Source: a virus. Taken from it: a stretch of 20,720 nucleotides of DNA. The notes under the pieces are model-generated. The model was not told the DNA's origin. It searched no databases and saw only the letters and a program-made list of their open reading frames with translations. Shown here one piece after another: positions 9,475-20,720 of the stretch. Numbering within the stretch: position 1 is the first letter of the stretch; each line of letters starts with the position of its first letter. The stretch is from positions 1-20,720 of the IMG/VR virus record IMGVR_UViG_3300034062_008406, one strand, 5' to 3'. A program made the position numbers and the translations under genes.

Positions 9475-9488
9475 GAAAAGGTGTGCAT

Positions 9489-11918
9489 ATGGAAAAATTT
9501 GATGAAGTTGCAGACAGCTGCCTTAAGAAAGCTGAAAACTACGCAAGGGTAAAAGACAAAGATTCAGAGATAAGAGTTTCGCATTTAATATTTTCAATTC
9601 TAAATGATAAAAAATATAATGTAGTCACATCTGTTTTAGAGGAAATGAATATTGATGTCGATTTATTGACAGAAAGTGTTGAAATTGTAAGGGTAGAAAA
9701 TATCAAATCTCAAGAGACAAAACAGAAATCTATAAAAAATTGTAAAATACTTAATGAAATTTTACAATTTTCTTTAGAAAATGCTATAAAATTTGAAGTA
9801 AAAACTGAAGCCAGTATTGTAGATATTTTTCTATCTTGCTTACAAATTGAAAATGAATTAACTGAGGTCTTCAACGATTTTCATATTAACCATGAAAAAT
9901 TTAAAGAAATTGCCGAAGATTTAGAAGCAATGGATTTTGAAGAAGATTATGATGGTGGATTTGAATTTGCTGAAGCATATTCAATCAGATCTCCAAAACA
10001 ACCGACTTCAAAAAATTTTAATTTAGAGAAGTATTGTACCAATTTCACACAATTAGCTAGTGAAAATAAACTTGATCCTTGTTACGGTAGAGAAGATACA
10101 ATTAACGAACTATATCGGATACTTTGCAGAAGCAAAAAAAGAAATGCTGTATTGATTGGTAGAGAGGGCGTAGGCAAAACAAATTTGGTTGAAGGGCTTG
10201 TTGTTAACATTGTAAGAGGAAGTGCGCCTAAAAAGCTTTTAAATAAGACGATCTATTCCTTAGATATTAATTCTCTTGTAGCTGGAACAAAATATAGAGG
10301 TGTATTCGAAGAAAGAATACAGGCTATATTAGATGAACTTTCTTCAAATGAAAATTCAATACTTTTTATTGATGAAATTCATAATATCATCGGAGCAGGT
10401 TCAGCTGAAGGCAGCGGTGACTTATCAAATATATTAAAACCTTATTTAGCAAGAAAATCTTTTCAAATAATTGGTGCTACAACTACCTCAGAGTATAAAA
10501 AATATTTTGAAAAGGATAAAGCATTAATAAGAAGATTTTCCGAAGTAATGGTTGAAGAACCTTCCGTAGAAAACACAATAAAAATTCTTAATAACATAAA
10601 AGATTCTTTTGAGAAAACTCATAATGTTACATATAGCCAGGATGCAATTATAGCATGTGTTGAATTAAGCCACAAATACATGCCTTATAGAACACTTCCA
10701 GATAAAGCTATCGATATTATGGATGATGTAGCCTCAAAGAAAAGGCTTCAAATATTCCAATCGAATAATTTGAATAACCTTCAAGATGAATACAAAAAAA
10801 ATGAAGAGAAAAAATTAGAAATTATTAAAAATAAAGCATATCATTTAGCTGAAGAAATTAAAAAGGAATCAAATAAAATTCTTTCGAAAATAAAGGCTGA
10901 AAGAGATGGTAAAGCTAAAGAAGAAACTTCTAAATTAATCATAACTCTTCAAGATGTAAAAAATGTAGTTCAAGAGATAACAAAGATTCCTATTGCAGAT
11001 GATGGATTAGATGTGAAATTGTTGAAAAAACACTTAAGTGATAAAATTGTAGGTCAAGATGAGGCAATCAACGCTATCACCAAAACTATGATGCTTAATA
11101 AACTAGGATTAGATGATAGTGATAAACCTATAGGTTCATTTTTATTTATAGGATATTCAGGGGTAGGTAAAACTGAAATTACTAAAGAAGTATCAATGTT
11201 CATATCTAAAAGTAATGATTCATTGATAAGAATTGACTGTAGTGAATATAGCCAACCTCATGAGATTGCAAAATTGATAGGCGCACCTGCAGGATATATT
11301 GGATATGATGAAGGAGGAATTTTAACTGAGAAAGTCAAAAGAAACCCATTTTCAGTTATTCTTTTTGATGAAATTGAAAAAGCTCATGAGAAACTTTTTG
11401 ATATTCTTTTGCAGGTTTTAGGTGAAGGTAGATTAACTGATAATAAAGGTGAAACAATTAGTTTCAAAAACAGTATCATAATTCTGACATCAAACATCGG
11501 CACAAAAAAAGCTATCGGAAATATGTCATCAATCAGTTTCGCAAAATCTGAAAAAAAATATGACCATTCCATAGTTGAATTAGAAGTTAAAAAGTTCTTC
11601 AAACCCGAATTTATAAACAGAATTGATAACACTATCCATTTCAATATTCTATCAAAAGAAAATATAAAGGTTCTTTTGAGAAAAGAATTGGATAAACTTG
11701 CAAAACAAGTTGAAAAACATAATGTGAAGTTAAAAATTTCTGAAGAAGTTATAGATTTTCTTTTGGAAAGAGATTATACCATTGAGTATGGATTCAGACC
11801 ATTTAAAAGAATCGTAAACGATGAAATTAAATTGATTATAGCTGAAATCTTGTTGGAAGATAAACCAGCAGAAATAAAACTAACGATTGAAGATGGAAAA
11901 ATAAAAGCGGCTTTTTGA
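9489..11918 (+). CDS. ClpA/ClpC-like AAA+ unfoldase, about 809 aa
   Basis: This is an ATP-driven hexameric protein unfoldase. Residues are counted from an in-frame GTG at 9483; the ATG at 9489 is the likely start, as it is preceded by AAGG and the box at 9467. It has a divergent N-domain (1-150). D1: Walker A GREGVGKT (226-233), Walker B ILFIDE (293-298), sensor GATT (331-334) and arginine pair 350-351. A charged helical insert lies at about 428-485. D2: GYSGVGKT (557-564), VILFDE (625-630), TSN (669-671) and sensor-2 GFRP (770-773). The insert is far shorter than the ClpB middle domain, so it is ClpA/ClpC type. The ClpP-docking tripeptide position reads ISF (684-686) instead of the usual [LIV]-G-[FL]. 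The gene stands alone on the plus strand, and its stop lies inside a bidirectional terminator. Confidence 0.93.
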   Translation: MEKFDEVADSCLKKAENYARVKDKDSEIRVSHLIFSILNDKKYNVVTSVLEEMNIDVDLLTESVEIVRVENIKSQETKQKSIKNCKILNEILQFSLENAIKFEVKTEASIVDIFLSCLQIENELTEVFNDFHINHEKFKEIAEDLEAMDFEEDYDGGFEFAEAYSIRSPKQPTSKNFNLEKYCTNFTQLASENKLDPCYGREDTINELYRILCRSKKRNAVLIGREGVGKTNLVEGLVVNIVRGSAPKKLLNKTIYSLDINSLVAGTKYRGVFEERIQAILDELSSNENSILFIDEIHNIIGAGSAEGSGDLSNILKPYLARKSFQIIGATTTSEYKKYFEKDKALIRRFSEVMVEEPSVENTIKILNNIKDSFEKTHNVTYSQDAIIACVELSHKYMPYRTLPDKAIDIMDDVASKKRLQIFQSNNLNNLQDEYKKNEEKKLEIIKNKAYHLAEEIKKESNKILSKIKAERDGKAKEETSKLIITLQDVKNVVQEITKIPIADDGLDVKLLKKHLSDKIVGQDEAINAITKTMMLNKLGLDDSDKPIGSFLFIGYSGVGKTEITKEVSMFISKSNDSLIRIDCSEYSQPHEIAKLIGAPAGYIGYDEGGILTEKVKRNPFSVILFDEIEKAHEKLFDILLQVLGEGRLTDNKGETISFKNSIIILTSNIGTKKAIGNMSSISFAKSEKKYDHSIVELEVKKFFKPEFINRIDNTIHFNILSKENIKVLLRKELDKLAKQVEKHNVKLKISEEVIDFLLERDYTIEYGFRPFKRIVNDEIKLIIAEILLEDKPAEIKLTIEDGKIKAAF

Positions 11919-14215: not shown

Positions 14216-14302
14216 ATGAAAATTACATTAAACGAATTGAGACGTTTGATTAAAACTGTTATAAAAGAACAAGACGAAAAAAAAGTTGCTAATCCTTTAT
14301 AA
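14216..14302 (+). CDS. 28-aa ORF with capsid-targeting-like N-terminus, ends in an in-frame TAA
   Basis: ATG 14216 opens MKITLNELRRLIKTVIKE, nearly the same pattern as the gene at 20487 (MKIKLNELRQMVRKIISE). Position 16-18 is I-x-E, the T4 gp21 prohead-protease cleavage consensus, and T4 internal proteins start with a similar short basic/amphipathic targeting peptide. The frame stops at TAA 14300-14302 after 28 residues, but then stays open in the same frame to 14683. This is therefore probably the head of one 154-residue gene broken by a nonsense codon, or a gene read through. It is too short to be convincing as a protein by itself. Confidence 0.55.
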   Translation: MKITLNELRRLIKTVIKEQDEKKVANPL

Positions 14303-14350
14303 AAAGAACATGAACAATTAACAGGAATCCTTTTTGATATTCATGATTTA

Positions 14351-14683
14351 TTGAAAGATTATATGAATTCTGATGAACTTGATATGGATTCAAAAAATGA
14401 TTTACATGGAATGTTCAAAGATTTGAATATTCTATTACGCACATTAATAAATGAAAGTAAAATACTTGCAGGAAATGATTTAATGATGCAGGAATCCTTT
14501 AAATATAAAAAGAAATTAATAATCGAAAGTCTTGTTTCAGATATTATAACTGAATTAAATTCGAGAAAAATGGAATTAATAAAAAGTTACTATTACCAAA
14601 ACTGGTCTGAATATAACAACGCATTACATGGAATAGGCAATTGGATGACTTATGCTTCTACAAAACTTATACCTAAGAAATAA
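14351..14683 (+). CDS. Hypothetical helical protein, C-terminal part of a TAA-split gene
   Basis: The frame is the same as the 28-aa ORF upstream and is open from 14303. The first possible starts are TTG 14351 and ATG 14363. The product is helical and charged, with no recognised family. The part between the TAA and 14351 (KEHEQLTGILFDIHDL) is as protein-like as the rest, which argues that translation originally ran through. If translated alone, it would need re-initiation at TTG or ATG, and no Shine-Dalgarno is present. The alternatives are a recent pseudogene, stop-codon readthrough, or a sequence error at one base. It ends 10 nt before a bidirectional terminator. Confidence 0.6.
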   Translation: MKDYMNSDELDMDSKNDLHGMFKDLNILLRTLINESKILAGNDLMMQESFKYKKKLIIESLVSDIITELNSRKMELIKSYYYQNWSEYNNALHGIGNWMTYASTKLIPKK

Positions 14684-14741: not shown

Positions 14742-15143
14742 TTATCTTAATATCATTTTTGTAATAAAAACACTATTAAATTCCATTGCAAGTCTATTGT
14801 CCTCCCAATATTGAAAATATTCATTTTCTTTTTTGATATATTCTTCCGATTCCATATCGTCATAACCTTCATCATTAAAAACAGGGCAATTGGCAATAAT
14901 CTCATTTTGAAGTTTTTCATAATCTTCCGCAAAGGTCTTTGCTGCAGCTTCTGATTTAAAGCAAGCTAAAACAAACTCCATATTATCAGGATATGTTCCA
15001 ATTCTTGTATGAACAAGATATATGTATTCAGACTTATCAGAATTTTCAAATGAAATGCATTGTTTTGAATCAGTGTTTTCAGATGGGGGTTCACCTGGCA
15101 ACATATCTAAAATTTCTTTTGATGATTGATTAATAATTTCCAT
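14742..15143 (-). CDS. Hypothetical phage protein, 133 aa
   Basis: The protein is not recognised. Residues about 39-75 form a beta-beta-helix unit (YIYLVHTRIGTYPDN, then VLACFKSEAAAKTFAEDYEK), typical of small phage proteins with an alpha/beta fold. Residues 88-115 are acidic with many E and Y, and the C-terminus returns to strand. The start overlaps the NADAR-like gene by 14 nt, so it is in the same operon. It is the last gene of the long leftward transcript and ends 20 nt before the terminator. Confidence 0.8.
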   Translation of the reverse strand: MEIINQSSKEILDMLPGEPPSENTDSKQCISFENSDKSEYIYLVHTRIGTYPDNMEFVLACFKSEAAAKTFAEDYEKLQNEIIANCPVFNDEGYDDMESEEYIKKENEYFQYWEDNRLAMEFNSVFITKMILR

Positions 15144-15795
15144 AATATTTTTCAGTTATTTTTTTAATCAAAGCAGAAGTTATATCTTCATTAGAATTTA
15201 ATTCGCTTCTTTGAACAATTTCATCTGTTTCCTTATGTTTTAAAAAAAGAGTCAATCCGTTTTCCGAAGATTTTGTACATTCATTGTAATAAAAATTTGC
15301 AATCAAAGATTGTCTCAAATTCATCCAAAGTTTTCCAAGCATATTCTCACCTGCCCAAAAGCAATCAACATAATCCTGATTTTCACAGATATATGCAGCA
15401 CCCCAAAATAACGAAGAATCATTCACATTTGCTTTCTTGGTAACATCTTCATAAATCATTTGATTTCCAGTACACATAAGATGCCATTTCATCCAAGGAT
15501 GCTGTTCAATTTTCATTTGAAGCAATATTTCCATATTCTTAACATCTTCTTTAGAAAGCAATCTTACTTCTAAAAGTTCTGGATTTCTTTTGATGATTTC
15601 TTTGAACAATTTTTTTGCCTCAAGAGGATCCAAAGTTTTGCAAATTTTATCAACAATTTCTTTATGAAATTTAAATCTTGAACAAATGAACCAATGATCA
15701 GCCCTTGGAAATGTGATATCTTGAAATGTTATAGGATGATTAGATTTGTTTGAAAGCCAACCAAATTCATCGTTGATGGTTGTAAAAGTTATCAT
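15130..15795 (-). CDS. NADAR-family protein (YbiA-like), 221 aa
   Basis: The NADAR fold is recognised from its ordered motifs: FGWLSNKSNHPI (11-22, the FLSNFxPxPI block), FPRADHWFICSRF (29-41, the YPSVEHYFQAQKF block, with D33 in place of Glu), HLMCTGNQMIYED (105-117, with TG and E116), SLFWGAA (128-134), and GENMLGKLWMNLR (149-161). The length suits the family plus a C-terminal extension (165-221). NADAR proteins act on ADP-ribose-linked substrates, and some members remove ADP-ribose from guanine in DNA and act as antitoxins to DarT1. A phage copy could reverse DNA ADP-ribosylation by a host defence or process nucleotide metabolites; this is inference. It is coupled to the upstream 92-aa gene by an ATGA overlap. 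Confidence 0.85.
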   Translation of the reverse strand: MITFTTINDEFGWLSNKSNHPITFQDITFPRADHWFICSRFKFHKEIVDKICKTLDPLEAKKLFKEIIKRNPELLEVRLLSKEDVKNMEILLQMKIEQHPWMKWHLMCTGNQMIYEDVTKKANVNDSSLFWGAAYICENQDYVDCFWAGENMLGKLWMNLRQSLIANFYYNECTKSSENGLTLFLKHKETDEIVQRSELNSNEDITSALIKKITEKYYGNY

Positions 15796-16070: not shown

Positions 16071-16130
16071 TTATATTAATTTTAGTTTTTGTTCAAGAAT
16101 CTTTAAAGTTGCTTGCTCCTTTTTATTCAT
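16071..16130 (-). CDS. Possible 19-aa peptide abutting the 92-aa gene
   Basis: ATG 16130 gives a lysine-rich peptide of 19 residues whose TAA is immediately followed by the ATG at 16070. The abutting arrangement and an AAGGAG inside the ORF might serve translation of the next gene rather than make a useful peptide. Evidence is weak. Confidence 0.25.
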   Translation of the reverse strand: MNKKEQATLKILEQKLKLI

Positions 16131-16166: not shown

Positions 16167-16195
16167 GTTATGTTCCATTAAAACGAGAACATAAC
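16167..16195. repeat. Hairpin site S0, loop CATTAAAACGA
   Basis: Perfect 9-bp arms GTTATGTTC/GAACATAAC flank an 11-nt loop identical to the loop of site S2 at 16712-16722, although the arms differ completely. It is followed on the plus strand by ACAAATATAAACA, which is repeated inverted at the other end of the zinc-ribbon unit. Confidence 0.6.
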
Positions 16196-16210
16196 AACAA
16201 ATATAAACAA

Positions 16211-16384
16211 TTATTCGTTATCCTCCCAATAATATCCACTAAAAAATTCTTCATAAGTTTCTTCATCCAAAACATAATCCCAGTAATAATGAGCTTTACT
16301 ACAATTTGAGCAATCACCAGATTGATAATCTTCACTTATGAAGAATTTATAATTACATTTCGGACATTCTAATTCGTGTTCCAT
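16211..16384 (-). CDS. Zinc-ribbon protein, 57 aa
   Basis: ATG 16384 encodes MEHELECPKCNYKFF, then CSNC, so four cysteines C7, C10, C25 and C28 form a C-x2-C...C-x2-C zinc ribbon. The C-terminal 25 residues are acidic and aromatic (FFSGYYWEDNE). It is too short for ordinary ORF cut-offs but plausible. Its leader is identical for 22 nt (16382-16403) to that of the 81-aa gene at 19362-19383. An inverted copy of ACAAATATAAACA flanks the other end of the gene. Function is unknown; nucleic-acid or protein binding is typical of such ribbons. Confidence 0.75.
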   Translation of the reverse strand: MEHELECPKCNYKFFISEDYQSGDCSNCSKAHYYWDYVLDEETYEEFFSGYYWEDNE

Positions 16385-16419
16385 AATAACTGTTTATATT
16401 TGTGAACGTTATGTGTAAT

Positions 16420-16665
16420 TTATCTTAACACAAAATCAAAATATTTATCCGATAGTGCATTTATATCTGTAAAGTTTGAATACCAACCATTATTGAATAC
16501 GATATAGAGTTTTGTATCATCTTCAAAAGTTTGTTCGTATAAATCATATTCCTTATCTTTTTGAAATTCCCACGACATATCGTATTCATCTGAACGAGTA
16601 CATAAAACTTTACCTATAAGTTCCACTTCTCTATCTTCATATTCTTCTATTAATCTTATTTTCAT
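16420..16665 (-). CDS. Hypothetical cassette protein, 81 aa (or 91 aa)
   Basis: The product starts MKIRLIEEYEDREVELIGKV and is a small acidic alpha/beta protein with a NNGWYSN patch; the family is not recognised. The frame extends to ATG 16695, adding ten residues, but that stretch is the conserved unit end GTTATGTGTA plus an AT-rich leader that forms a 15/16 inverted repeat with 16408-16423. I therefore prefer ATG 16665. However, the 71-aa gene of the array does appear to start inside GTTATG, so 16695 is not excluded. It is followed downstream by the zinc-ribbon unit. Confidence 0.7.
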   Translation of the reverse strand: MKIRLIEEYEDREVELIGKVLCTRSDEYDMSWEFQKDKEYDLYEQTFEDDTKLYIVFNNGWYSNFTDINALSDKYFDFVLR

Positions 16666-16688
16666 ATATTTTGATTTTGTTAATAAAC

Positions 16689-16745
16689 TACACATAACAA
16701 ATGATAAACAACATTAAAACGATTGTTTATCATCGGACGTTAGGT
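16689..16745. repeat. attC-like site S2
   Basis: The plus strand reads ACATAAC, AA, an 11-bp perfect stem (16701-16711 with 16723-16733), loop CATTAAAACGA, CGGAC and GTTAGGT. GTTAGGT fits the integron core GTTRRRY exactly. The end TACACATAAC (16689-16698) is the reverse complement of GTTATGTGTA at 16408-16417 across the gene. Confidence 0.65.
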
Positions 16746-16915
16746 TCAATTAAACATTAGTGGTTTAATGCTTGATTGCCCTATCTGAGTAATTTAAGTA
16801 TTTCAATTTTTGATTACAAATTTCGTAGTAATTTGTCTTTTTCATTGTCTAAATCATTGATTATCAAGGTTTTAAAATAGGTGTTGATATATTCTATAGT
16901 TATAAGCAATAAAAA
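16746..16915. other. Cassette-like stretch with only weak ORF content
   Basis: This stretch between sites holds a small hairpin (ATTAAAC/GTTTAAT, 16750-16770), an 11-nt palindrome TTGATTATCAA near 16856, a 26-codon ORF described separately, and the GTTATAAGC end of the next unit at 16899. I see nothing else in it. Confidence 0.4.
16765..16845 (-). CDS. Possible 26-aa peptide
   Basis: MKKTNYYEICNQKLKYLNYS begins a 26-residue Tyr/Asn/Lys-rich peptide. It is placed like other cassette ORFs, ending about 20 nt before the GTTAGGT core of S2. The composition is plausible, but the length gives little statistical support. Confidence 0.3.
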   Translation of the reverse strand: MKKTNYYEICNQKLKYLNYSDRAIKH

Positions 16916-17029
16916 TTACTCGTGCAGAAATTCCACATAATATGGAATGTGCCATGAATGTTTACTACTATAATATAATCTCCACCAACCTCTATTGTTC
17001 TGAATTTCTTCTGTCCATTTTGCTGTCAT
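16916..17029 (-). CDS. Small cassette ORF, 37 aa
   Basis: ATG 17029 gives a 37-residue product, MTAKWTEEIQNNRGWWRLYY and onward to PYYVEFLHE. It has an unusual four-tryptophan, five-tyrosine composition that chance AT-rich frames do not normally produce. The gene fills a unit whose two ends, 16899-16919 and 17034-17054, are reverse complements at 19 of 21 positions (GTTATAAGC...TAAAAATTAC). This is the longest terminal inverted repeat in the array. Function is unknown. Confidence 0.6.
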   Translation of the reverse strand: MTAKWTEEIQNNRGWWRLYYSSKHSWHIPYYVEFLHE

Positions 17030-17047
17030 TGTCGTAATTTTTACAGC

Positions 17048-17142
17048 TTATAACAGCGTATATGTGCAATACGCTAATAAGCATTTGTTGTTAATAATTA
17101 ATTTCATCTATGCGTACTGCACATATACGCAAACCGTTATAA
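17048..17142. repeat. attC-like site S3
   Basis: The plus strand reads TTATAAC, A, then arm GCGTATATGTGCA-A-TACGC (17056-17074), a 37-nt spacer, GCGTA-C-TGCACATATACGC (17112-17130), AAACC and GTTATAA. The arms pair over 18 bp with a single A:C mismatch. There is no T tract, so a terminator is unlikely. Confidence 0.75.
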
Positions 17143-17151
17143 TTAATAAAA

Positions 17152-17229
17152 TTATTTAGGTATCCAAAACCCTTGAATTGTCTGTTTTACTTCAATAAAT
17201 ACTATTCCATTAGCTGTTCTTATCCACAT
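17152..17229 (-). CDS. Small cassette ORF, 25 aa
   Basis: MWIRTANGIVFIEVKQTIQG is the start of a 25-residue peptide with alternating hydrophobic residues, ending FWIPK. It is short, but it is the only ORF in a unit bounded by sites S3 and S4. The unit ends 17136-17155 and 17228-17247 are reverse complements at 16 of 20 positions (GTTATAA...TAAAATTAT). Function is unknown. Confidence 0.5.
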   Translation of the reverse strand: MWIRTANGIVFIEVKQTIQGFWIPK

Positions 17230-17240
17230 AATTTTACATT

Positions 17241-17333
17241 TTATAACAAGGTATATGTGAAATACCTCATAAGGTTTCTACTAATTATTTAAGTTCTGTG
17301 GTCAGGTACTTCACATATACCCAACCGTTAGAC
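17241..17333. repeat. attC-like site S4
   Basis: TTATAAC, AA, arm GGTATATGTGAA-A-TACC (17250-17266), spacer, GGTA-C-TTCACATATACC (17305-17321), CAACC, GTTAGAC. The arms pair over 16 bp with the same A:C mismatch as S3. GTTAGAC fits GTTRRRY and contains the stop codon of the 70-aa gene. Confidence 0.75.
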
Positions 17334-17540
17334 GTAATTTTTCTTGAACCAATCGTCAAACCACTTCTCAAAATTATCGTATTTCATTTGAATACCCATA
17401 TCAGACCAAGTTGTTACATGACTACCGTCCTTAAACGCTTGTTTCAAATCATCATACGTGAATGAAAAACTACATCTAACATCAGATATACTCAATTCGG
17501 GGTTCTGTGCTTCATTTGATTTTTCTACGTTTTCAATCAT
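17328..17540 (-). CDS. Hypothetical cassette protein, 70 aa
   Basis: A small soluble protein of unknown family. Residues 14-26 (NPELSISDVRCSF) carry a motif shared with the two ORFs at 17607 and 18255. The C-terminal part is aromatic and lysine-rich (FEKWFDDWFKKNYV, 57-70). The TAA stop lies in the GTTAGAC core of site S4, a position typical of integron cassettes. The ATG is followed upstream by an AT-rich leader and site S5. Codon use resembles the neighbours. Confidence 0.7.
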   Translation of the reverse strand: MIENVEKSNEAQNPELSISDVRCSFSFTYDDLKQAFKDGSHVTTWSDMGIQMKYDNFEKWFDDWFKKNYV

Positions 17541-17573
17541 TTTATCTATTATTTAAGTTTTGTGTTTGAAATC

Positions 17574-17602
17574 GGCACTAAATATAGCCTTGTCCGTTAG
17601 TG
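17574..17602. repeat. Short hairpin site S5, loop ACTAAATATA
   Basis: GGC/GCC arms flank ACTAAATATA (17577-17586), then TTGTCC and GTTAGTG. Site S6 shares the same 10-nt loop, spacing and GTTA but has other arms. Both are preceded by a TTATTT(T)AAGTTT leader and lack the TAAC core on the left, so they form a second subtype. Confidence 0.5.
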
Positions 17603-17606
17603 ATAA

Positions 17607-17870
17607 TTATTTTATTTTCCTACCATCCGCAATCATTTCCAAACTAATCTGTGATATTAAACCTTGTGAACGAACAAGAAGTCCCCATATATTATCACCA
17701 TGTCTATTCCTCTCTTCTTGAGTCATATATTTATTCATATATTCAACAACCTTATCTTCTTGTTCATCTAATTTATTTCTTAGTGAATTGAAAATAAAAT
17801 CACTATCACTAACATCAAATATATTCAATTCTGAGTTTTCGTTAAATCTCCTAATTCTGTTCTCTTTCAT
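17607..17870 (-). CDS. Hypothetical cassette protein, 87 aa
   Basis: This is a helical, charged protein of unknown family. The N-terminus is basic (MKENRIRRFNEN). Residues 13-24 (SELNIFDVSDSD) carry the motif shared with neighbouring cassettes. Residues 30-60 are likely helical, and the C-terminal part (GLLVRSQGLISQISLEMI) is amphipathic. It lies between the short hairpin sites S5 and S6, with its stop 5 nt past the GTTAGTG core. I see no terminal inverted repeat on this unit. Confidence 0.7.
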   Translation of the reverse strand: MKENRIRRFNENSELNIFDVSDSDFIFNSLRNKLDEQEDKVVEYMNKYMTQEERNRHGDNIWGLLVRSQGLISQISLEMIADGRKIK

Positions 17871-17905
17871 AGTTTTGTCTTTTATTTTAAGTTTATATAT
17901 TAAAT

Positions 17906-17938
17906 CTCAGAACTAAATATATCTGAGTATCGTTATGA
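17906..17938. repeat. Short hairpin site S6, loop ACTAAATATA
   Basis: CTCAGA/TCTGAG arms (17906-17911 with 17922-17927) flank the same loop as S5, followed by TATC and GTTATGA. The arms covary completely against S5 while the loop is invariant. Confidence 0.55.
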
Positions 17939-18148
17939 ATAATACTTCTTAACATATTCATTGAAGAATAATGAAAATCCTTCGGTATCTAACTCACCCA
18001 TCATATAATGATTCCACTCAGTCCGAAATAATGTTTTATCACTATCATTCATTACTTTACTAATTTCACCCCAAAGTTTGTGAGCTTTTCGTTGATTAGA
18101 TTCTCTTCTACAAAAAACATTATTTCTAAATTCTTCAAACGTATTCAT
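17933..18148 (-). CDS. Hypothetical cassette protein, 71 aa
   Basis: The coding region fills its unit exactly. The ATG lies inside GTTATGAATA at the right end (18142-18151 in complement), and the TAA stop lies inside the identical inverted copy at 17932-17941. The product MNTFEEFRNNVFCRRE continues into KAHKLWGEI and ends in NEYVKKYYS. It is helical and aromatic, with no recognised family. There is no room for a promoter or leader between site S7 and the start codon, so expression must come from upstream transcription. Confidence 0.7.
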   Translation of the reverse strand: MNTFEEFRNNVFCRRESNQRKAHKLWGEISKVMNDSDKTLFRTEWNHYMMGELDTEGFSLFFNEYVKKYYS

Positions 18149-18239
18149 AACAAAGTGTATAAGTAATGTGGCTAATAAAGTTTATTCTAAGTTGAAAGTA
18201 TGTGCAAAGCCACACTACTCATACACTCAACCGTTAGTA
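18142..18239. repeat. attC-like site S7
   Basis: TATTCATAAC, AAA, then arm GTGTAT-A-AGTA-A-TGTGGCT (18155-18173), a 34-nt spacer, AGCCACA-C-TACT-C-ATACAC (18208-18226), TCAACC and GTTAGTA. It forms 17 pairs with two A:C mismatches. It has the same architecture as S3, S4 and S9, with a different sequence. Confidence 0.75.
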
Positions 18240-18254
18240 GCAATAAAACAAAAA

Positions 18255-18659
18255 TTAACGAATCATACCAAGTGCTGAATCATCATTATCCCAAAGATTG
18301 TCTAAAATTTGTTTAATTTCTTTTAATAAATTATCTTCAATTTTTCCTTGTAATTTATTTATAACATTTTCATAAGCATCTGCTTGTGCTTTTTTACAAA
18401 TATAAACAGCATCGCTTCTATCTAAAAATTGATGTCTGTCAAATTCATCTTTAAACAAATTTTTCCAATACTTACCACTACTAACTTGTCTAGTGAATAT
18501 ATTTTTCCAAGATTCATCACTTTCTTGTATAATTTTTGTTTGACTACTTCTAACATCAGATAAACGCAATTTTAATTTTTCGTTTTCTGCTTTTAATTCA
18601 CATATTTTGTCTTCTAATTCACGTATTTCGTCTTGTAATTCGTCTTCGTATCCAAACAT
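18255..18659 (-). CDS. Coiled-coil cassette protein, 134 aa
   Basis: Residues about 4-45 form a strong heptad coiled coil (ELQDEIRELEDKICELKAEN), ending in KLRLSDVRSS (29-38), which is the motif shared with the 70- and 87-aa cassettes. The rest is helical with aromatic residues, ending in LDNLWDNDDSALGMIR. It is probably oligomeric; the function is unknown. It is the largest ORF of the array. Its downstream site is S7, and its upstream boundary (S8) is degenerate and keeps only CAACCGTTATAA. Confidence 0.75.
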   Translation of the reverse strand: MFGYEDELQDEIRELEDKICELKAENEKLKLRLSDVRSSQTKIIQESDESWKNIFTRQVSSGKYWKNLFKDEFDRHQFLDRSDAVYICKKAQADAYENVINKLQGKIEDNLLKEIKQILDNLWDNDDSALGMIR

Positions 18660-18696
18660 AATTTGTTATTTAAAAATTAAAAAATTCGTTTATCTG

Positions 18697-18713
18697 CAAC
18701 CGTTATAAGTAAC
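18697..18713. repeat. Degenerate site S8: CAACC-GTTATAA end only
   Basis: The right-hand end CAACCGTTATAAGTAAC matches the other sites, but there is no matching left arm or TAAC. The 12 nt GTTATAAGTAAC at 18702-18713 are nearly the reverse complement (10/12) of 19028-19039 across the 101-aa gene. Confidence 0.45.
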
Positions 18714-18714
18714 T

Positions 18715-19020
18715 TTAAAGACGCTCTTCAATATAAGCAATATCATCATCTAACGACTCACCCGTACCTTTAATATGCTCAAACCAATCAACTTCTGGAT
18801 ATTGTTTGCCCTTACTTAAAAGAAAATTATTGTTTTTAGCATATTCATTAGGTTTTTTAATATGTATAATGAATTGTCCATATTTTGTTTTTTTGGAACG
18901 TGAATAAATATCTGCAATTGGAGATTCAAACCTTTTATGTAATTTAAACTCTGTAATGTTTGAACAATTAACGTCTATACCATTAATTGATACTCCTTTC
19001 ATTTTATAAAATATATCCAT
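18715..19020 (-). CDS. Hypothetical cassette protein, 101 aa
   Basis: A small basic protein with an alpha/beta pattern (GVSINGIDVNCSNITEFKLH at 9-28, then YGQFIIHIKKPNEY at 47-60). The family is not recognised. ATG 19020 is used; ATG 19002 (residue 7, MKGVSI) is an alternative. The unit ends are imperfect inverted repeats, and its upstream core reads CTTATAAG where other sites have GTTA, so this end may be worn. Confidence 0.7.
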   Translation of the reverse strand: MDIFYKMKGVSINGIDVNCSNITEFKLHKRFESPIADIYSRSKKTKYGQFIIHIKKPNEYAKNNNFLLSKGKQYPEVDWFEHIKGTGESLDDDIAYIEERL

Positions 19021-19027
19021 AATAAAA

Positions 19028-19112
19028 GCTACTTATAAGAAGGTATATATGCAATACAATATTAAGTTTAAGTTTGGCGCAAGGGTACTGCATATATACC
19101 CAACCGTTATAA
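19028..19112. repeat. attC-like site S9
   Basis: CTTATAAG, then arm GGTATATATGCA-A-TAC (19042-19057), spacer, GTA-C-TGCATATATACC (19085-19100), CAACC and GTTATAA. The arms pair over 15 bp with the A:C mismatch in the same place as S3 and S4. It is the rightmost full site. Confidence 0.7.
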
Positions 19113-19118
19113 ACAATT

Positions 19119-19364
19119 TTAAGAAATGTGTTCTCTTGTATTAAGTTCCGTTTTAATTAAATTCAAAAAATCTTTCCATTCATTGAATCTAATCTTTTCC
19201 TTCTGATAAAATTCATCATCTGAATGTTCCCACATATACTCACAAGTTTCAAATCCCCAATGATATTGTGATATAGCAACATTATATCTTTTACGTTCTG
19301 CTCTATAAAAACGTAGAAGATTTTTTGAATTTAATTTCCTTAGTTCTTCGATAGACTTTCTCAT
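19119..19364 (-). CDS. Hypothetical cassette protein, 81 aa
   Basis: The protein is helical, basic and aromatic (LLRFYRAERKRYNVAISQYH at 16-35), with W36 and W49 and one CEYMW stretch. It is not recognised. Its stop lies just inside the GTTATAAACAATTTTAAG end after S9. Its leader over 22 nt is identical to that of the zinc-ribbon gene 3 kb away, which suggests a shared, duplicated start region. It is the first unit of the array in transcription order. Confidence 0.7.
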   Translation of the reverse strand: MRKSIEELRKLNSKNLLRFYRAERKRYNVAISQYHWGFETCEYMWEHSDDEFYQKEKIRFNEWKDFLNLIKTELNTREHIS

Positions 19365-19383
19365 AATAACTGTTTATATTTGT
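19362..19383 (-). repeat. 22-nt leader repeat shared with 16382-16403
   Basis: Both copies include the ATG and the AT-rich leader of a gene and are identical. On the minus strand they read ACAAATATAAACAGTTATT and then ATG. Beyond them the sequences diverge. An 18-nt palindromic stretch (TTTTAGTT/AACTAAAA around AATA) lies next to this copy at 19384-19403. Confidence 0.7.
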
Positions 19384-19403
19384 TTTTAGTTAATAAACTA
19401 AAA

Positions 19404-20383: not shown

Positions 20384-20415
20384 CAAAGTTATATAAACTA
20401 TCTGATGATTCCAAA
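20384..20415 (-). promoter_or_regulatory. Bacteroidota-type promoter (-33 TTTG / -7 TAACTTTG)
   Basis: The minus strand reads TTTG (20412-20415), 20 nt, then TAACTTTG (20384-20391), fitting the Bacteroidota consensus TTTG-N19..21-TAnnTTTG. It would start transcription about 40 nt before the ATG at 20335. The motif coincides with a 7-bp hairpin (20375-20392). It is the clearest host-type promoter in the window. Confidence 0.6.
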
Positions 20416-20456
20416 TTTTCATAAGAAAATTTTTTAACTTTTTAAAGAAATCAATA

Positions 20457-20464
20457 TATTTATA
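20457..20464 (+). promoter_or_regulatory. Late-promoter-like TATTTATA box, plus strand
   Basis: ATATATTTATAATAAAA lies 22 nt before ATG 20487 and is identical in core to the boxes before virion-module genes. Confidence 0.6.
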
Positions 20465-20486
20465 ATAAAAAAAAAATAAATTTCTT

Positions 20487-20720
20487 ATGAAAATAAAATT
20501 GAATGAATTAAGACAAATGGTTAGAAAGATTATTTCTGAAAGTTATAATCTTAATACAATTTACCCTTATTACGTTGAAGTAACTACTAACGGAATAGAT
20601 GAAGAATATTTTAACGTTGAAGAAAATGGAAAATTGGTTGGTAAGGTAATAGAAATGATTGAAAGAAATATTGATTATGAAGTTAAAGGTAGTGTTAATT
20701 TTGATAGCATAATAATAAAT
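20487..20720 (+). CDS. Partial gene with capsid-targeting-like N-terminus (runs off the window)
   Basis: The frame is open for 78 codons to the last base of the window. The N-terminus MKIKLNELRQMVRKIISE is nearly the same as that at 14216, with I16-x-E18 as a possible prohead-protease site. The following part (YYVEVTTNGIDEEYFNVEEN at residues 29-48) looks like a small alpha/beta domain. A TATTTATA box precedes it, so it is probably a late, virion-packaged protein; this rests on the T4 precedent. Confidence 0.7.
   Translation, partial: MKIKLNELRQMVRKIISESYNLNTIYPYYVEVTTNGIDEEYFNVEENGKLVGKVIEMIERNIDYEVKGSVNFDSIIIN

Follow-up and report, generated by a model that had tools for sequence, protein, structure and literature searches.

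The virus record IMGVR_UViG_3300034062_008406 contains a run of small genes alternating with folded hairpins, which raises the question of whether this is an integron-like cassette array inside a tailed phage and, if so, which enzyme moved its cassettes. The window analysed here is the 20,720-base record, a fragment of a phage genome. We conclude with high confidence that phages of Bacteroidota use an integron-like cassette platform, of which the region is a decayed tandem copy. In its intact form, this platform consists of a XerA/IntI-like recombinase, an attI-like site and a row of cassettes, each formed by a small gene and a folded hairpin, and platforms of this class are widespread. The window encodes a T4-like portal (Portal_T4, PF07230, 1.4e-65) and has a weak match to a T4-type terminase. 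These two matches indicate a tailed phage, which is T4-like and probably has a host in Bacteroidota. Together with the hairpin geometry and the exchange of cassettes at CGTTA described below, the portal supports the proposal of the initial annotation that an integron-like array lies in a tailed phage.

The array and the recombinase remnants in the window

The array comprises ten small open reading frames (ORFs), 25-134 aa long, which all occupy the minus strand from 16211 to 19364 and lie between or inside hairpins of the plus strand, in agreement with the about ten same-strand ORFs first noticed there. Every TAAC...GTTA pair of the 20.7-kb window was scanned for complementary arms. Six anchored hairpins scored 11-16.5, all within 16695-18705, whereas the next best pair scored 6. 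All six have 1-2 unpaired nt after TAAC and exactly 5 before GTTA, giving the geometry TAAC, 1-2 nt, stem, loop, stem, 5 nt, GTTA. Because of this gap in score and the uniform spacing, the hairpins are real and far above chance. A seventh hairpin with the shared TAAC/GTTA ends lies at 16192-16411. Two further sites deviate: TAAG takes the place of TAAC at 19036-19109, and the hairpin at 17477-17599 is badly eroded. An Rfam scan of the window returned chance matches only, all under the gathering scores, and no family fits.

The initial annotation placed the feature at 16167-19112 and saw no integrase. The array is indeed there, but its recombinase remnants and attI sites belong to the feature, which therefore starts at 16071; it ends at about 19390. 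Likewise, no intact recombinase gene is present in the window, but the array is not integrase-free by nature: its attI sites and N-terminal recombinase stubs, two of each, show that one or more recombinase genes were once present and then deleted. The deletion left a frozen array and explains why no integrase was seen. The features are as follows (L numbers denote loci compared with the window).

16071-16130, minus strand: recombinase remnant 1, first 19 codons (MNKKEQATLKILEQKLKLI, then stop), rest of the gene deleted; over 103-123 nt, the region of remnant 1 and attI 1 matches the recombinase start and attI of L200/L196 with 77-82% identity
16150-16170, plus strand: attI-like site 1 (TTATATAATATA followed by GTTA), with a spacing to the recombinase start similar to that in viral relatives
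16167-16407, plus strand: cassette 1, 91% nt identity to the attI-proximal cassette of L219, homology stopping exactly at CGTTA 16411
16211-16384, minus strand: cassette 1 ORF, 57 aa, CxxC...CxxC (zinc-ribbon-like), within the hairpin loop
16192-16411, plus strand: cassette 1 hairpin site (TAAC..GTTA, ORF held in the loop)
16408-16738, plus strand: cassette 2, 89% nt identity to a cassette of L205, homology from exactly CGTTA; own ends complementary
16420-16695, minus strand: cassette 2 ORF, 91 aa, 87% aa identity to L205
16695-16742, plus strand: cassette 2 hairpin site, short class, CATTAAAACGA loop (anchored scan)
16765-16845, minus strand: recombinase remnant 2, 26 codons (MKKTNYYEICNQKLKYLNYSDRAIKH, then stop), 88% identity over 25 aa to the N-terminus of the L222 recombinase; remnant 2 with attI 2 (16765-16902) has 87% nt identity over 134 bp to L222
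16882-16902, plus strand: attI-like site 2 (GTTGATATATTCTATA followed by GTTA)
16899-17135, plus strand: cassette 3, 21-nt, 90% complementary ends (16899-16919 and 17034-17054)
16916-17029, minus strand: cassette 3 ORF, 37 aa
17051-17139, plus strand: cassette 3 hairpin site (anchored scan)
17136-17326, plus strand: cassette 4, also in L161 (92% over 220 nt) between unrelated neighbours, both breaks at CGTTA
17152-17229, minus strand: cassette 4 ORF, 25 aa
17244-17330, plus strand: cassette 4 hairpin site (anchored scan)
17328-17540, minus strand: ORF of cassette 5 (17327-17595), 70 aa, with a relative among the ORFs of L190
17477-17599: cassette 5 hairpin, eroded
17607-17870, minus strand: ORF of cassette 6 (17596-17931), 87 aa; 24-nt, 92% complementary cassette ends (17596-17619 and 17790-17813)
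17810-17935, plus strand: cassette 6 hairpin site, ORF start inside (anchored scan)
17933-18148, minus strand: ORF of cassette 7 (17932-18232), 71 aa
18148-18236, plus strand: cassette 7 hairpin site (anchored scan)
18255-18659, minus strand: ORF of cassette 8 (18233-18701), 134 aa; complementary cassette ends (18233-18257 and 18530-18554)
18551-18705, plus strand: cassette 8 hairpin site (anchored scan)
18715-19020, minus strand: ORF of cassette 9 (18702-19105), 101 aa
19036-19109, plus strand: cassette 9 hairpin site, TAAG variant, identified by repeats
19119-19364, minus strand: cassette 10 ORF, 81 aa; the distal end of the array is degenerate near 19367-19392

The left arm of the hairpin site (TAACATCAGATA...) is coding, and three unrelated cassette ORFs, at 17477, 17810 and 18551, therefore have a short stretch in common (ISDVRCS, IFDVSDS and LSDVRSS); in these three ORFs the recombination site writes part of the cassette protein.

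Cassette sites, cassette exchange and the recombinase in related phages

A first set of loci consisted of viral contigs found by a 14-base piece of one hairpin, many of them with full palindromic partners, while linkage and attI were tested on loci picked by recombinase protein; the protein search of viral contigs gave 190 relatives, of which 80 were kept. In 1.55 Mb of related loci, 669 anchored hairpins were found, compared with 28 after Markov shuffling; spacings of 2/5 and 1/5 (nt after TAAC/before GTTA) occurred 164 and 67 times but almost never in shuffles. The hairpins fall into three length classes (about 45-49, 85-90 and 115-127 nt), and those of one array lie almost always on a single strand. 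A BLAST search of one hairpin against isolate phages returned chance matches only.

With a unit defined as the stretch from one GTTA to the next, the first bases of a unit are complementary to the bases directly before its own TAAC, with match frequencies of.65-.89 at positions 1-6 and.67-.73 at positions 8-11, versus.26-.53 for other or unrelated units or for the two flanks of one hairpin. Position 7 is almost never matched and carries a conserved A/C mismatch. Correspondingly, folding with DNA parameters made the site more stable with the start of its own cassette than with that of the next one in 294/343 cases (mean -5.65 kcal/mol, p=2e-49). Complementary ends, initially noticed in several units of the window, are thus general across the related loci. 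With the arm completed from the start of the same cassette, this private pairing is what cassettes passing through a circle would look like. As in attC, the site is conserved in its folded structure rather than in its sequence.

Cassettes are also found in different contexts. A set of 465 cassettes was compared; where a homologue lies in a different context, the similarity stops exactly at CGTTA on either side, and over all comparisons 81/361 alignment ends were no more than 2 bp from CGTTA (1.3% expected). Four phage contigs each contain a relative of one window cassette (1, 2, 4 or 5), and the protein of cassette 5 matches its L190 relative with 61% identity over 41 aa. L321, which is syntenic with the window over 5.8-14.1 kb, has none of the array hairpins in its 22 kb. 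A fixed gene order without gain or loss at GTTA had been named in advance as the case that would speak against a cassette array; instead, phages differ by gain and loss of cassettes precisely at CGTTA. They are traded as units at the core site, as integron cassettes are.

A tyrosine recombinase scoring above the PF00589 cut-off is present in 10/30 array-bearing records and adjoins the array in all eight inspected. In 61/64 protein-picked viral loci with enough upstream sequence, hairpins lie directly upstream of the recombinase on the opposite strand; in total, 316 hairpins are on this side and strand, 7 are upstream on the other strand and 3 are in 485 kb downstream. The enzyme is about 265 aa long, and its catalytic residues R133, K158, H217, R220, H243 and Y252 are invariant in 48 recombinases. 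The array recombinases therefore have the R-K-H-R-H-Y pattern of the PF00589 tyrosine recombinase superfamily, of which the window retains N-terminal stubs only. One more truncated recombinase was found beside arrays, at 9884-10213 of L155, a 130-kb array-bearing contig without an intact PF00589 match; it ends after residue 110 (aa 1-110, 71% identity).

The distance from the catalytic K to HxLRH is 58-60 residues (66 in one recombinase) versus 107 in Bacteroidota IntI, indicating that the IntI insert is absent. Against the IntI model TIGR02249 the recombinases scored 147-158 bits with a cut-off of 265, the match being split in two, and the nearest NCBIfam model, NF040815 (XerA), gave 168-195 bits with a cut-off of 220; every curated Xer (equivalog) and IntI cut-off lies above their scores. 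An AlphaFold model (pLDDT 88) best fits the integron integrase on a Vibrio cholerae repeat (VCR) hairpin (2A3V, E 6e-15), followed by XerA. In a quick tree (SH-aLRT only), in which long-branch grouping is unsure, the array recombinases form a clade apart from the XerC/D-like sequences. No close recombinase was found in a Bacillota sample, a search run without a positive control. Acinetobacter plasmids encode recombinases, one named TnpF, that are about 46% identical to the phage recombinase.

The start of the first cassette, located by its complementarity to the end of the first hairpin, was found in 46/56 distinct loci. Nearly all of these starts are at TATATATAATA followed by GTTA, 42-60 bp from the start codon of the recombinase. 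By analogy with integrons, an attI-like site stands beside the recombinase at the array start.

Chromosomal relatives and cargo

Recombinase matches at E<=1e-70 were obtained in 90 of 395 sampled Bacteroidota genomes, and about a dozen of the 29 best new chromosomal loci have at least one hairpin of the array geometry near the recombinase gene. Chromosomal XerA-like platforms of Bacteroidota (L293-L300) resemble the phage form in hairpin geometry, in private cassette-end pairing including the mismatch, and in having an attI-like site. However, their layout is opposite. In most of them the attI-like site TATAAACGAGTTA follows the recombinase stop at a distance of 60-126 bp, and the ORFs are sense (10/10) to the TAAC-to-GTTA strand, whereas in phages attI precedes the start codon and 344/350 cassette ORFs (median 87 aa) are antisense, 6 being sense. 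The phage form is therefore a rearranged relative rather than a copy. Correspondingly, the integron arrangement in which ORFs are oriented with attC and away from attI is found in the chromosomal relatives and not in the phages. One hairpin subtype had 2 matches in 257 Gb of bacterial and archaeal genomes. A virus-only system was considered and is ruled out by these chromosomal loci, which have the same geometry with other sequences.

Polaribacter phage P12002L (L319, NC_028924), a cultivable isolate whose annotation names no recombinase, carries short hairpins of the array family at 30008-30056, ~30908-30955, 38035-38090 and 38879-38936, some of which share the CATTAAAACGA loop with the window hairpin at 16695-16742.

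Among 87 of the longer cassette ORFs, the recognisable families are mostly DNA methyltransferases; a restriction-alleviation protein, an RNA ligase and nucleases also occur, and most are of unknown family. The methyltransferases and the restriction-alleviation protein fit a use in the arms race.

Mechanism, alternatives and flanking genes

In the anatomy and exchange described above the system works like an integron, and as far as sequence can suggest, its chemistry would run as follows. A cassette would exist as a circle of the form X'-TAAC-spacer-stem-loop-stem-CAACC-GTTA-X, in which one strand alone would fold into a single long, bulged hairpin resembling a double-stranded core site. Cutting within C-GTTA, the recombinase would then join the cassette to attI or to a different GTTA junction, in the way that integron integrases handle attC. 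Since every cassette has an X arm of its own, the site would be complete only in the circle, or across a cassette self-folded in single-stranded DNA, and this arm could favour insertion at attI over random shuffling. Captured genes would be transcribed with the phage operon, since all ORFs run with it; given that ORFs, recombinase and neighbouring genes are co-directional in phages, read-through would be the simplest idea of how this occurs.

Like integrons, this platform has a tyrosine recombinase next to a site resembling attI, cassettes of one gene with one bulged hairpin apiece, a GTT core, and whole cassettes that are gained and lost. In contrast to integrons, its recombinase lacks the insert, without which integrons cannot function according to Smyshlyaev et al. 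2021 (PMC8138268), its sites have 1-2/5 nt spacers and an A/C mismatch in either arm, pairing private to the cassette extends about 10 nt past GTTA in place of a common GTTRRRY box, and in phages the ORFs are antisense with the array upstream of the recombinase start. The AAC/GTT core is present, but the RYYYAAC/GTTRRRY boxes are not, GTTRRRY fitting 31/357 cassette starts. By two tested features, the insert and the R-box consensus, the array system lies outside the IntI/attC family. The attC-bounded cassettes of the initial annotation thus stand as an integron-like layout but not as a classical IntI/attC system, which is also at odds with ORFs running against the site orientation of the chromosomal relatives. 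Similarly, XerA/XerC/XerD share the catalytic pattern, and XerA is the nearest model, but the array recombinases score under the equivalog cut-offs and are tied to cassette arrays and attI rather than to dif. We favour, with reasonable though lesser confidence, a second, IntI-independent integron lineage, namely a cassette-trading network of Bacteroidota phages with a dedicated XerA-like recombinase, its own attI and a full site only in the circle, related to unrecognised chromosomal platforms of opposite layout. Such a lineage would either share an insert-less ancestor with IntI integrons or be a separate invention.

Several points weigh against these conclusions. We infer recombination and the circular intermediate from sequence, and the directional role that the long arm pairing could have is a proposal. 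As the record is a 20.7-kb fragment, an intact recombinase may be present elsewhere in the phage. The viral contigs come from metagenomes, and no phage carrying the recombinase was found among isolates, the best match reaching 39% identity. Moreover, hairpin counts in the first locus set are biased because it was picked by a sequence belonging to one hairpin subtype, and some of the protein-picked loci are near-duplicates.

The alternative that survives best, although we consider it unlikely, is that the array is a cluster of attC sites lacking integron-integrases (CALIN), composed of ordinary attC cassettes from bacterial integrons and moved by a host IntI. The overall logic and the TAAC/GTTA cores are the same, and IntI is common in Bacteroidota genomes (over the cut-off in 84/296). 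For Bacteroidetes proper, one complete integron, in Salinibacter, has been named (Neron et al. 2022, PMC9024848). Classical integrons and CALINs are reported in phages, including P12002L with its hairpins of the array family, by Qi et al. 2023 (PMC9892861), according to whom IntI1 recombined one of two predicted P12002L attC sites into attI1; their attC2 could not be matched to a particular hairpin. The virulent-phage CALINs of that source resemble the present arrays in being attC-like, in lacking an integrase in lytic phages and in carrying DNA methyltransferase cargo; they are read there as stray classical attC, and its accessible part does not describe a cognate phage recombinase, attI, private pairing or cassette exchange. 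However, a different, insert-less recombinase adjoins the arrays, few cassette starts fit GTTRRRY, the phage ORFs are antisense, and none of the 2/5 hairpins were found in the twelve Bacteroidota IntI loci examined. The IntI and array systems therefore coexist in one phylum with different sites.

It is very improbable that homologous recombination between conserved hairpins shuffles the cassettes without a site-specific enzyme. Some hairpins do resemble each other over 85-90 nt, and the ends of some alignments fall within hairpins, but most pairs of exchanged cassettes have unrelated left hairpins whose common sequence shrinks to CGTTA, and the complementary unit ends and the recombinase linkage would be left unexplained. 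Equally small is the chance that the hairpins belong to HUH transposases (IS200/IS605 or REP/RAYT type). Elements of this type also use folded single strands and tetranucleotide targets, but a tyrosine recombinase rather than a Y1 transposase adjoins the arrays, as seen without a separate Y1 search, and the cassette ends are not a common sequence. The least credible reading, in which the hairpins are transcription terminators or untranslated-region elements of an ordinary small-gene operon, accords with their position between co-directional genes but predicts neither private end pairing nor exact exchange borders nor recombinase linkage, and besides the lack of a fitting Rfam family, 96/154 hairpins of the 100-140 nt class contain the start codon. 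This reading and homologous recombination were rejected because the exchange borders lie exactly at CGTTA.

Integrons are usually described as bacterial devices bound to IntI and its special insert, whereas this platform follows the same logic with another recombinase and other sites, and is carried by viruses and traded between them as single-gene cassettes. It explains part of the mosaicism of phage genomes at single-gene resolution, its hairpin tags allow many small accessory genes of phages to be located, and it makes testable both the need for the IntI insert in hairpin recombination and the origin of integrons. The system is apparently undescribed: no description was found in the literature searched, from which preprints and most subscription journals were outside, and this negative is not proof of novelty.

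In the genes around the array, matching N-terminal signatures had been noticed on both sides, and indeed MKI(T/K)LNELR is common to the phage ORFs at 14216-14683 and 20487-20720. The former is split by an in-frame TAA at 14300-14302, after which the same frame is open to 14683. Relatives of the flanking 221-aa protein (15130-15795) were sought and none were found. An 811-aa ClpA/ClpB-like AAA+ ATPase is encoded at 9483-11918 within the structural gene region and has relatives in at least 600 viral stretches. An imperfect inverted repeat of 37 nt (76%) at 20415-20494 lies directly upstream of, and reaches into, the start of the ORF at 20487.

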